Shown here: positions 40,420-43,676 of the stretch, in pieces
How positions within the stretch are numbered: position 1 is the first letter of the stretch
Layout of the letters: the number at the start of each line of letters is the position of its first letter
From: Microcystis viridis FACHB-1342
GTDB lineage: Bacteria > Cyanobacteriota > Cyanobacteriia > Cyanobacteriales > Microcystaceae
NCBI RefSeq assembly: GCF_014698335.1
Contig: NZ_JACJSV010000041.1
Span: 1-43,964 of the forward strand
Direction of reading: 5' to 3'
Length of the DNA: 43,964 nucleotides
Notes under the pieces: generated by a model
Seen by the model: only the letters and a program-made list of their open reading frames with translations
Told to the model about the DNA's origin: nothing
Database searches by the model: none
Made by a program: the position numbers and the translations under genes

Positions 40420-41127
40420 TTATTGAATTTTAACATTTAATTTATAGGTGGCATTGCCGCGAGTTCCCCCTACAATTATTTCATAATTTCCAGTAGCAGG
40501 TAATTTTAGACTAGATTGGGTAGCTTCTGTTGTCAATATTTCCCCATTCGGTGCAATCACATCAAATACGGCATTATTTTCTAATGATGTAATTTTCAGA
40601 TCCATTCTCTGTCCTTGATTTGCTCTTAAGAGATAAATATTTCGACTCCCTCGCACAACCGATTGATTGACGGTGGCGCTATTAGTCCCTGGTGCAAACC
40701 AGATTTGAGACAATAAACAAGGTTGTCTTTGATAAACTTCTCGTCCCGTATTCAAAGAATCTGCGGTTAATGTCCAGATTGCTTGAGTTTTTTGGGTGTC
40801 TAACTCAATTTTTGTCGTGATATTTAAGTTTAACTGATTCCCCTTTTTTGTTCCTTGTAAGGTTTGAGTATAGGAACTATAATAAGCTGCTTGTTCATTA
40901 TGAATTGTAGCTTCTACCCGACCCGTGACTTGATTTCCCTGAATATAAATCCTCGCGGTAGCATCCAGATTATCATTAGCGACCGAAAAACAATAACCTT
41001 GAATCGAAGAAGTGCTAGACGCTTGAGCAACTTGTCGGGGGGGATGATTTGCTATCCCTGGTGTAACATTGACTAAACTTGCAAAAATGACTAGACATCC
41101 TAATAATTTCATCATCATCGGAACCAT
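40420..41127 (-). CDS. secreted protein with a C-terminal PPC-like beta domain
   Basis: A protein of up to 235 residues with a signal peptide (hydrophobic LLGCLVIFASLVNV, cut near residue 26-35). A first domain (about 40-140) of beta strands begins SIQGYCFSVANDNLDATARIY and contains two cysteines that could pair. The last 90 residues (RGSRNIYLLRANQGQRMDLK, LPATGNYEIIVGGTRGNATY) resemble the bacterial pre-peptidase C-terminal (PPC) fold. Several in-frame ATGs lie at the start (codons 1, 4, 5, 6), so the exact start is open. Location is probably periplasm or outside. Function unknown. Confidence 0.7.
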   Translation of the reverse strand: MVPMMMKLLGCLVIFASLVNVTPGIANHPPRQVAQASSTSSIQGYCFSVANDNLDATARIYIQGNQVTGRVEATIHNEQAAYYSSYTQTLQGTKKGNQLNLNITTKIELDTQKTQAIWTLTADSLNTGREVYQRQPCLLSQIWFAPGTNSATVNQSVVRGSRNIYLLRANQGQRMDLKITSLENNAVFDVIAPNGEILTTEATQSSLKLPATGNYEIIVGGTRGNATYKLNVKIQ

Positions 41128-41186: not shown

Positions 41187-41420
41187 TCATTTATGAACTA
41201 TTTTACCCGATTTTAAAGCATTTTGGTCTGTTTTTTTCCTCCGTTGATTAAGATTCGTCGATCTTACTATTATAGACCCTAACCCTAGAAAAATTAGAGC
41301 GGCTGTTACCGAAGGTTCAAAAACAGTTACCGGTGAATTTTGCATTAGATGTAATGTGCTTTCTATTTGGATGTTATAATCAGCTAAAGTTCGCCCCTCT
41401 TCTAAAACCCGCCAATTCAA
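41187..41420 (-). pseudogene. truncated ubiquitin-like / PEP-CTERM protein gene
   Basis: A 77-residue frame. Residues 8-25 (EGRTLADYNIQIESTLHL) match 15 of 18 residues of eukaryotic ubiquitin 52-69 (DGRTLSDYNIQKESTLHL); the Lys63 position is Ile and there is no LRLRGG tail. Directly after it, residues 34-63 look like a PEP-CTERM sorting signal: FEPS, a hydrophobic helix ALIFLGLGSII, then the basic stretch RRKK. The front half of a ubiquitin fold is missing: upstream in frame there is a stop at about 41436 and then a C/G-rich hairpin repeat (41438-41538). The TTG start is only the first available codon. I read it as the tail of a larger secreted protein gene cut off by that repeat. Confidence 0.6.
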
Positions 41421-41437
41421 AAATGGATTTTAGGTTC

Positions 41438-41538
41438 GATCCCCCCTTAGTCCCCCCTTGATAAGGGGGGTGCCGATCCCCCCTTAGTCCCCCCTTGATA
41501 AGGGGGGCATCTGATAATTTTTAACGCCTACCTACTTA
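41438..41538. repeat. C6/G6 hairpin repeat unit, copies 2 and 3
   Basis: Two tandem units each contain CCCCCCTTGATAAGGGGGG (41452-41470 and 41489-41507). The second is followed by the tail CTGATAATTTTTAAC-CCTACCTACTTA, also found after the copy at 12056-12119. The unit sits between the NACHT gene stop and the truncated ubiquitin-like frame, again just past the end of a minus-strand gene. Confidence 0.85.
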
Positions 41539-41594: not shown

Positions 41595-43676
41595 TTAAGG
41601 AACGCGGAGCATTCGTTCTTCGATTTCTTGCCAAACGGTAGGGGAAATATTAACAGCCACTTTTTGGCAACTTAGCATTAATTCATTAACGTATAGATAA
41701 TTTTGAAATATAATCCAGTCAGGTGTTCTCCAAGAAGAGAACCCAATCGGACTTTGCTTATAAAAATCTAGAATTATTTTTTCATAAAATGCTGAGATTT
41801 GATCAAATTCTAATTGTCCTAGTATTTTTTTTGTAATTGAACTAATCAATGCAAAAATATGTGTTGCTGTTTTTTCACTTTGCATTTGTTCACTGGTTAA
41901 CAAATGTCCATAATGATATTGATACAAAACATCAATACCAACATATTTTTGTCTTAATTTATCTAATTGCTCAAGGAAAGGTTCGTCAAATTGTGGAGTA
42001 TTATCTATGTAATTATTATACATATCTGAATGTATTCGATTATAGCACTTGGTAAAATTAATCCCTTTATTTAATCTGTCAAAAAGAATGATCGAGCGTT
42101 TTGCAGAGGGTTTAACCGATTCTTTTAATTCACCAGTTGCTTGCTCTACCCAAACAAGAAATTTAGATAATTCGGCATTCTTCGCATATTCTTGAGCTTC
42201 TTTCTCCATTGCTAATAACAATTTATCGGCTTTCCCTCGCATCAAACCCGCCACTAACAAAAACACCTCTTGCCAACGAGTTTCTGTTACATAATTCTTA
42301 ACTGTTTCTTCAATCAAATCATTGTCATAGATATACTGAGCCGTGAGGTATTCCTGAAGGGTTAAATGAGAAAAAGAATAGACATCTCTCGCCCGCTCTA
42401 CTAAAATTCCCTGTTCAATTTCAATGGTTTTTAATACTTTTTCTCCGTCCAGATGTTGCGGAGCATTTAAGTTTTGTTTAAGGTGATCTTTAATTTGCTT
42501 AACAACTTCTCGTTTTTCTAAAAAAAGTTTATCTGCTACAAAATTCTGATAAGCAATTTCAGACAGCAAAATTTCTTCTTGCTCAATACTGAGATTTTCA
42601 TAAACTAAACCGCGATTAGGTAAACGTTTTTCGGCTGACCATTTTTCCAATAAAATTCGTAACGCATCTTGATAAAGGCGACTGCGATTTGTGGGAAAAG
42701 ATTGATTTTCATCATAAACTAAACACAAAAAAGTCAACAATAACGGTGTATGGGCTAACTCTTTTGCACTTTTATACTCCTCCTTTTGCAACAGTTCCCA
42801 ACAATTTTTAGCCGTCTCATTTTTCCGATCTAATTCCGAACTAAACCAATGTTCAATAAAACTTTGAATTTGCTGATCATCAAATTCGACAATTTCAATA
42901 TCGGTAAATCGTCGAAGATGAGTTCTAGCAGCAGTGCGACAGGAGAGAATAAAACGATTTTTATGATGCCTATCTACAAAATCTTGAATTTTCTCGATTA
43001 CATTATAAACATTAGCTGTTGGCACTTCATCCAAACCATCTAATAAAATTAGTAATTCCCCTTTTTCTAGTTTATTGCTAATATTTTTTTCCACATTGGG
43101 AAAACCACAGATTTTAAACTCCTCTTCAATTAATACCTGAATATTAATCTCGTTTTCTTTAAAGTTTTTCAACTCCAGTAAAACAGGTGTTAGAGAATGC
43201 TGATAACTGTCTTTATTTCCCTTGAGAGCTTCTAGCCCAACTTTTCGCAAAAATGTAGATTTACCAATACCAGGATCACCAAGTACCATTAAATATTGTT
43301 TTTGATTAGCCAAAAGTAAACCATCTTTTTTACCATCATCCCTAAAGTTAAACCGTCGCTGTTTACTCTCACGATATTTATTTTCTAAATTTTCATCATA
43401 ATAATCCCTGACTAAATTTCCTAAACATTTGACATTAATATAAATTGACTCCAAATCCATCGGCTTAGACATTTTTAAAACCTTAATCATGCCGTGCCGA
43501 TCCCAGTAACGTTGAGTATATTCCCGTAAAAAAAGATACTTTCCCTCTTTGAAAAGCTGTCCGACATCTTTATTCAATAACTCATTTTTATTAATACCCT
43601 CCCACCCCGATTTAATCATTTGACCAATAAAATTATTAGTCAATGCCGTTACAATGGTTGTTTCAATTCCTGTCAT
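41595..43676 (-). CDS. NACHT-domain STAND NTPase
   Basis: A 693-residue protein. Residues 1-110 form a helical N-terminal region without an effector domain I recognise. The NACHT NTPase follows, with Walker A LGDPGIGKST (132-141), Walker B LLILLDGLDEVP (208-219) and sensor motif FILSCRTAA (242-250). A winged-helix part contains FSHLTLQEYLTAQYI. The C-terminal 200 residues are helical and are not leucine-rich or TPR repeats. NACHT proteins act as switches that oligomerise after sensing a ligand; several bacterial ones defend against phage. That role is inference here. AT-content appears higher than in neighbouring housekeeping genes, which hints at transfer. The gene is flanked on both sides by dispersed repeats. 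Confidence 0.88.
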   Translation of the reverse strand: MTGIETTIVTALTNNFIGQMIKSGWEGINKNELLNKDVGQLFKEGKYLFLREYTQRYWDRHGMIKVLKMSKPMDLESIYINVKCLGNLVRDYYDENLENKYRESKQRRFNFRDDGKKDGLLLANQKQYLMVLGDPGIGKSTFLRKVGLEALKGNKDSYQHSLTPVLLELKNFKENEINIQVLIEEEFKICGFPNVEKNISNKLEKGELLILLDGLDEVPTANVYNVIEKIQDFVDRHHKNRFILSCRTAARTHLRRFTDIEIVEFDDQQIQSFIEHWFSSELDRKNETAKNCWELLQKEEYKSAKELAHTPLLLTFLCLVYDENQSFPTNRSRLYQDALRILLEKWSAEKRLPNRGLVYENLSIEQEEILLSEIAYQNFVADKLFLEKREVVKQIKDHLKQNLNAPQHLDGEKVLKTIEIEQGILVERARDVYSFSHLTLQEYLTAQYIYDNDLIEETVKNYVTETRWQEVFLLVAGLMRGKADKLLLAMEKEAQEYAKNAELSKFLVWVEQATGELKESVKPSAKRSIILFDRLNKGINFTKCYNRIHSDMYNNYIDNTPQFDEPFLEQLDKLRQKYVGIDVLYQYHYGHLLTSEQMQSEKTATHIFALISSITKKILGQLEFDQISAFYEKIILDFYKQSPIGFSSWRTPDWIIFQNYLYVNELMLSCQKVAVNISPTVWQEIEERMLRVP

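Follow-up and report, generated by a model that had tools for sequence, protein, structure and literature searches.

The ubiquitin-like frame and its surroundings

The window analyzed here is a stretch of 43,964 nucleotides from Microcystis viridis FACHB-1342, and its frame of interest is read from the minus strand (Table 1). Translation of 41187–41420 on this strand yields LNWRVLEEGRTLADYNIQIESTLHLMQNSPVTVFEPSVTAALIFLGLGSIIVRSTNLNQRRKKTDQNALKSGKIVHK* (77 residues), and the plus-strand reading contains many stops. Fragment residues 5–26 align with ubiquitin residues 49–70. The first-pass annotation had counted 15 of 18 residues identical to ubiquitin 52–69 and considered this far above chance. 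Translation and alignment reproduce the count (17 of 20, with three differences, for residues 50–69), and the similarity is also found by profile and structure database searches. The Pfam profile PF00240 matched the fragment with E = 1.2e-4 and 22.2 bits, which is a partial match to profile positions 46–70 below the gathering score of 25.4 (located at G000:C75:41337-41411 in the window genome, G000). Single 76-residue ubiquitin chains in the PDB matched with E of about 3.5e-5, the far smaller E values in this search being those of polyubiquitins, which are scored across several repeats.

Table 1 Features of the ubiquitin-like locus, in window positions
Feature	Position	Strand	Evidence or remark
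Gene for a 235-aa protein, 3′ neighbor marking the locus	40420..41127	-	Present in 9/12 Microcystis genomes
77-codon open frame, first codon TTG	41187..41420	-	3′ remnant of exported-ubiquitin gene; first codons belong to the foreign side of the breakpoint
Basic C-terminal tail (RSTNLNQRRKK...) and stop codon	41187..41264	-	Translation
FEPS motif and hydrophobic helix (FEPSVTAALIFLGLGSIIV), C-terminal membrane segment	41265..41321	-	Sequence; no match to PEP-CTERM profile
Ubiquitin-domain remnant, residues 49–70 (V49 to M70)	41343..41408	-	Changes relative to human ubiquitin include D52E, S57A, K63I
Two 34-nt copies of a dispersed repeat	41437-41470 and 41474-41507		37-nt spacing; adjoin the truncation point
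NACHT NTPase gene, 693 aa, now 5′ of the truncated gene and separate from the ubiquitin gene	41595..43676	-	PF05729, E=1.2e-13

The window frame lacks a signal peptide and opens, at its TTG, within foreign sequence. Homology to intact genes of 148 codons begins at fragment residue 4–5, and the nucleotide match to one genome with an intact copy (G004; 95% over 997 bases) starts at the break point, just 5′ of V49. No second copy was found elsewhere in the window genome. Judged by its sequence, the window copy is the dead, 5′-truncated 3′ end of an exported-ubiquitin gene.

The full gene was found at the same locus in two of the 11 other Microcystis genomes, G004 (at about 1.397 Mb of a 5.45-Mb contig) and G005. 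Counting the truncated copy, the gene is present in three of the 12 genomes of the genus and was not found in nine. When the full protein was used to search the window’s family (50 genomes), G000, G004, G005, and G024 were the sole matches; the 4/50 count includes the window fragment as well as G024, which is probably misbinned. The product of 148 residues consists of MLKKSKITIVILLTLTFLALRVTSAMA (or ..GTTSAMA), ubiquitin from MQIFVKT to residue 70, and the tail QNSPVTVFE(T/P)SVTTALIFLGLGAIIVKSTNL.QQRKK... The first-pass annotation had suggested searching related strains for the missing 5′ part and for a whole ubiquitin fold ahead of the same tail, and both are present in G004 and G005. Residues 1–70 match PF00240 with 89.4 and 91.8 bits (cut-off 25.4), which places these proteins in the ubiquitin family, and in both genes cleavage is predicted between ...TSAMA and MQIFVKT, i.e., the signal peptide stops directly before ubiquitin Met1. 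These signal peptides were predicted from hydrophobicity and the −3/−1 rule instead of a trained predictor. The intact homologues rule out a chance match of the fragment, and the full ubiquitin domain in them rules out the unrelated repeat fold that the first-pass annotation had named as a possible refutation. Contamination of the window genome is ruled out as well, because the 235-aa gene and further genes also flank the intact copy in G004.

The intact relatives are identical to human ubiquitin at 83% and 81% of residues 1–70 and differ from it by the signal peptide, the membrane tail, and the lack of RLRGG. In all three Microcystis copies ubiquitin residues 71–76 read QNSPVT. The C-terminal Gly-Gly of conjugating ubiquitin, used in E1/E2/E3 chemistry, is thus missing, in agreement with the earlier view that a domain without this end would not be a conjugating tag. 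L8, R42, V70, and R72 are altered too, and the substitutions V26G (G004) and G53V (G005) are each unique among the 85 sequences compared. The tail extends 45 residues past ubiquitin position 76, with a transmembrane helix and a basic end. In a tree of 70 sites, which is weakly resolved, the two intact copies cluster with bacterial sequences. The intact gene is therefore predicted, from its lack of the RLRGG tail and its flanking segments, to encode an exported, membrane-anchored ubiquitin that would be incapable of tagging other proteins.

The first-pass annotation had also read the tail as PEP-CTERM-like and the protein as secreted and surface-sorted. FEPS, the hydrophobic helix, and RRKK are present, and export is supported by the predicted signal peptide of the two intact genes; a formal PEP-CTERM sorting signal was not recovered. 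TIGR02595 (E up to 1) matched 14, 60, and 41 sites in G000, G004, and G005, respectively, with the ubiquitin tail not among them, and no NCBIfam sorting-signal model matched the window protein or the intact proteins. A profile made from 27 PEP-CTERM tails of the genus gave the ubiquitin tail 2.6–3.2 bits, no more than shuffling can produce (best of 300 shuffled tails, 4.3); the profile’s own members score ≥33 bits, which is a biased comparison. The protein shares with the PEP-CTERM/exosortase surface proteins of the genus a signal peptide, a short C-terminal motif, a transmembrane helix, a basic end, and an exosortase in the genome, and differs from them in its motif (FEPS or FETS) and in lacking a PEP-CTERM profile match. 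The tail is most aptly described as a C-terminal membrane anchor that resembles PEP-CTERM in appearance, and “membrane-anchored” is the safer word. The exosortase (PF09721), which was above cut-off in all seven Microcystis genomes searched of the 12, may still process it.

The truncation had been attributed to a hairpin repeat. The gene does break off beside two copies of a repeat, CGATCCCCCCTTAGTCCCCCCTTGATAAGGGGGG, which occurs in all 12 Microcystis genomes with 3 to 58 copies each at ≤1 mismatch (43 in the window genome), sometimes in tandem, and is perhaps a MITE-like element. Its hairpin character refers to short inverted arms (CCCCCCTT/AAGGGGGG) seen by eye, and no inverted repeat of ≥14 is listed at 41437–41507. 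The window strain may have lost the gene through a rearrangement beside this repeat. The frames listed 5′ of the intact gene, covering about 5 kb in G004 and about 1.3 kb in G005, do not include the NACHT gene. The NACHT NTPase of the window is partly similar to the antiphage protein EruA (E = 5.7e-14, yet far under the model cut-off) and had no PADLOC match.

Other genomes differ at this locus. DUF6883 and DUF4926 genes, which we take to be a toxin–antitoxin pair and which had no PADLOC match, precede the ubiquitin gene on the opposite strand in G004. The DUF4926/DUF6883 stretch is also present in G011 (97.8% over 762 bases), without the ubiquitin gene and with 29 nt of the stretch directly repeated where it joins the region before the 235-aa gene; a similar junction sequence was seen by eye in G002 and G006, again without the ubiquitin gene. 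The 29-nt sequence repeated in G011 includes part of the DUF4926 3′ end and may therefore be left over from a gene instead of being an insertion repeat. G005 contains the ubiquitin gene and matches the DUF-pair region over just 84 bases. G006 lacks the ubiquitin gene, but 126 bases from the non-coding stretch 5′ of it are still matched at 77%, as after a gene loss.

Exported ubiquitins across bacteria

Descriptions of ubiquitin often confine it to eukaryotes, and against this reputation the occurrence of exported ubiquitins in bacteria of many phyla is surprising. Four exported ubiquitins were aligned and used as the query for a scan of prokaryotes, each species represented by one genome, which matched at least 590 stretches, at least 325 of which encode relatives. 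We analyzed the best 80 of these at least 325 relatives; some of the stretches beyond the best 80 may be eukaryotic contamination. By record title, the best 80 span two archaeal MAGs and 13 bacterial phyla (Bacillota, Pseudomonadota, Verrucomicrobiota, Actinomycetota, Bacteroidota, Synergistota, Cyanobacteriota, Acidobacteriota, Chloroflexota, Bdellovibrionota, Planctomycetota, KSB1, and Lindowbacteria). As 16 of the 80 titles carry no MAG or uncultured label, misbinning cannot account for the class, though it may account for single cases. Ruminant-gut labels appear in at least 17 of the 80 titles, seven of which name goat, sheep, or buffalo and ten of which contain RUG codes, presumably also a ruminant-gut label.

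Together with five earlier loci, the best 80 provide 86 domains in 85 loci. Met1 is present in all 86 domains, the preceding residue is Ala in 79, small residues occupy positions −3/−1 in 83, and a hydrophobic, signal-peptide-like stretch ends right before Met1 in 83. G75-G76 is kept in 3/85 and R72 in 53/85 sequences, the duplicate L072 being left out of both counts. L072 is the same contig as L029; it was excluded from the 85-sequence set, the remainder-pair test, and the tree and tail tally, and included in the 86-domain and four-fold counts. What follows the domain varies. Of 76 complete 3′ ends, 18 terminate in a hydrophobic segment, in 17 cases with basic residues after it, and short anchored forms resembling the Microcystis gene were found in L049, L050, L113, and L123. 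Among seven loci picked by eye for sorting signals, IPTL-CTERM was above cut-off in L113, L110, and L099, and VPLPA-CTERM was just under cut-off in L124. Autotransporter-type proteins share with the Microcystis form the signal peptide directly before Met1 and the lack of G75-G76, but carry a PF03797 beta-barrel after ubiquitin (tested for L029, and assigned to L055, L059, and L077 by homology of their remainders), which would display the domain through the outer membrane.

Within single families the domain is scattered. A Pfam profile search of one family found it in 7/150 genomes, the seed genome counted, in a set that is not fully independent because two sequences look the same as L076/L077 and two are 99.8% alike; six of its sequences (of seven loci, L169 left out) have 61–66 of 70 residues identical to human ubiquitin. 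In the cyanobacterial phylum, two of 386 sampled genomes matched at E up to 1e-6, G059 with a signal peptide, ubiquitin, and a long remainder, and G373. The G373 loci (L042, L044), on a small contig, encode a eukaryote-like fusion of ubiquitin with a protein resembling a ubiquitin protease and are probably eukaryotic contamination. L096, on a 48-kb contig of a MAG labeled Prochlorococcus, has a signal peptide, ubiquitin, and a long remainder, perhaps an outer-membrane barrel. L072/L029 (G024:C18, 3,300 bases) was binned as cyanobacterial and encodes a signal peptide, ubiquitin, and an autotransporter barrel; its remainder after ubiquitin is 94% identical to that of a Methylophilaceae MAG gene (L055), and the G024 contig is hence probably misbinned.

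Mobile elements provided few matches. None of 50,697 phage records matched at E up to 1e-3, and three of 72,556 plasmid records matched, none of them covering the tail. H3 and H4, from plasmids of Pseudoalteromonas shioyasakiensis, are annotated as Ig-like and tandem-95 repeat proteins and contain a divergent ubiquitin-like stretch (42–43% identity to the query), which is perhaps an older branch of the exported-ubiquitin class.

A eukaryotic origin, raised in the first-pass annotation for the fragment, is plausible for the entire class. A direct transfer into the window cyanobacterium is not needed, because many bacteria hold exported ubiquitins and the nearest neighbors in the weakly resolved tree are bacterial. 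Protein databases already name some members, e.g., a “ubiquitin family protein” of Ruminococcus albus. Among the best-ranked papers in the literature that could be searched, there was no account of an exported-ubiquitin class apart from BfUbb of Bacteroides fragilis.

Conservation and selection

Residues 1–70 of the 85 proteins are 79–99% identical to human ubiquitin (median 90%), and the seven lysines are retained at 92–100%. The residues that we assign to the F4 face are 98% conserved and those that we assign to the Ile44 face, taken to be the canonical binding face, 83%, compared with a domain mean of 89%. The 80 loci are the best matches to the query alignment and were found via two peptide patterns (residues 26–33 and 57–64), and conservation at these positions is partly built in; mean identity to human ubiquitin was 88.7% outside versus 90.4% inside the pattern positions. 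The family set of 150 genomes was obtained with the Pfam profile instead of the two patterns.

Across 3,403 pairs from 83 gap-free sequences, the median amino-acid difference was 16% and four-fold sites differed by 71%, which is near saturation. The four-fold difference was 72% in the 387 pairs with ≤10% amino-acid difference. Saturated four-fold sites alone could mean many separate acquisitions from eukaryotes. A stronger test is offered by pairs with homologous parts after ubiquitin, in which the whole gene descended inside bacteria. In 54 of 60 such pairs, those with remainders of <60% identity, the medians were 35% identity for the remainder, 86% for ubiquitin, and a four-fold difference of 0.68, from pairs that are not independent (ten related proteins account for 41 of the 54). 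Distant pairs of the profile-found family set behaved similarly, with 36% identity in the remainder, 59–63 of 70 identical ubiquitin residues, and 11/19 to 13/19 four-fold differences. Closer pairs showed a small gap (remainder/ubiquitin identities of 94%/96%, 68%/83%, 83%/90%, and 64%/79%). As ubiquitin remains about 86% identical where the remainder has fallen to about 35% and silent sites are near-saturated, the domain is under purifying selection in exported bacterial proteins.

Possible roles outside the cell

We consider the window fragment, with a probability of roughly 0.6, to be a fossil of a large and hardly described class of tail-less ubiquitins that follow a signal peptide, occur in some 13 phyla, are kept by purifying selection, and would use their surface outside the cell as a ligand directed at rivals or eukaryotes. 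If hundreds of bacterial genomes export a non-conjugable, sequence-conserved ubiquitin, something extracellular probably recognizes its surface, and the existence of the class makes the question of the binding partner testable. The intact Microcystis protein would be exported and then remain in the membrane, at the cell surface, or in the periplasm, where its folded ubiquitin face could act as a non-covalent ligand and not as a conjugating tag.

The single studied case that we found is BfUbb, encoded by ubb, which is secreted, lacks the terminal glycines, and inhibits other B. fragilis strains (PMC5705921, PMC3352274). Mature BfUbb starts at ubiquitin residue 1, and a single chromosomal site harbors ubb in 13 of 97 genomes, the toxin–antitoxin pair higBA with a 52-bp flanking repeat in 73, and is empty in 11 (PMC5705921). 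The Microcystis form resembles BfUbb in a signal peptide ending directly before Met1, the ubiquitin domain, the missing terminal glycines, and a strain-variable chromosomal site. It differs in having a transmembrane segment and a basic tail where BfUbb is a free protein ending with the ubiquitin domain, and in being known from genes alone where BfUbb is a shown antagonist. The target of BfUbb is reportedly a periplasmic isomerase, as stated in a 2024 report. A membrane-anchored form would extend the case of this free toxin to surface display. The DUF pair beside the ubiquitin gene in G004, and the pair only in G011, loosely resemble the ubb site, a likeness weakened by G005, which has the ubiquitin gene with the 84-base DUF match, and by the 29 nt being maybe a gene remnant.

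Because BfUbb is secreted, lacks the glycines, and inhibits other strains, we place first a BfUbb-like use of the domain, in which a non-conjugating ubiquitin ligand would antagonize competing bacteria; our confidence in this reading stays somewhat below even odds. Since the Microcystis protein appears to be anchored, its action would then be contact-dependent. The shared architecture of bacterial exported ubiquitins, with universal Met1 and rare G75-G76, fits such a role, and so do the patchy distribution (7/150 genomes in one family and 4/50 in the window’s) the free BfUbb-like layout of two Dyella loci, and the mature start of BfUbb at residue 1 and its variable site loosely resembling the window locus. 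Toxins aimed at rivals often diversify, whereas the median identity of the bacterial domains to human ubiquitin is still about 90%. Moreover, no immunity gene was identified, and the Microcystis copies show no visible constraint and contain the unique substitutions V26G and G53V.

The strong likeness to human ubiquitin, including its lysines, and the purifying selection inside bacteria would fit mimicry, a less likely second candidate. Here, a displayed non-conjugable ubiquitin would engage receptors of grazing protists or animal hosts, either ubiquitin receptors or those on the surface, or would sequester antimicrobial or proteolytic factors. The at least 17 of 80 titles from the ruminant gut, a protist-rich habitat, agree with this, as do the receptor and antimicrobial activities reported for extracellular ubiquitin (PMC10892293). 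However, the canonical Ile44 face is conserved below the domain average and the F4 face above it, and L8, R42, V70, and R72 are changed in the Microcystis copies.

In Microcystis itself the gene could be a relic that was acquired, was never or is no longer useful, and is being lost, which would be compatible with any role elsewhere and seems to us less likely than not. It is truncated in the window genome, was not found in 9/12 genomes, and has left the upstream non-coding match in G006. Between the intact copies of G004 and G005, 13 nonsynonymous and 3 synonymous changes correspond to a dN of 0.039 and a dS of 0.03, i.e., about equal values from too few changes to decide; the fragment yielded, again from few changes, dN 0.058 and dS 0.091 against G004, and dN 0.084 and dS 0.049 against G005. 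No constraint is visible in these comparisons, and the gene may be decaying in G004 and G005 too. On the other hand, the two intact frames keep the signal peptide and the tail, and the test has low power, as the neighboring 235-aa gene also shows a dN/dS of about 0.54–0.78 at the same short distance.

Compared with the ligand roles, we consider it improbable that ubiquitin, as a very stable fold, does no more than cap the N terminus of surface proteins to aid folding or protease resistance, even though it directly follows the signal peptide in nearly all 86 domains, precedes very different C-terminal parts (autotransporter barrel, IPTL-CTERM, transmembrane tails), and is just slightly more conserved than the remainder in close pairs, which does not speak against a cap. 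UBL domains drift in sequence, and a mere fold should do so, yet the surface residues are near-eukaryotic at saturated silent sites. At two loci ubiquitin stands alone with nothing to cap: both are from Dyella and encode only a signal peptide and a ubiquitin ending at RL, sharing the free layout of BfUbb.
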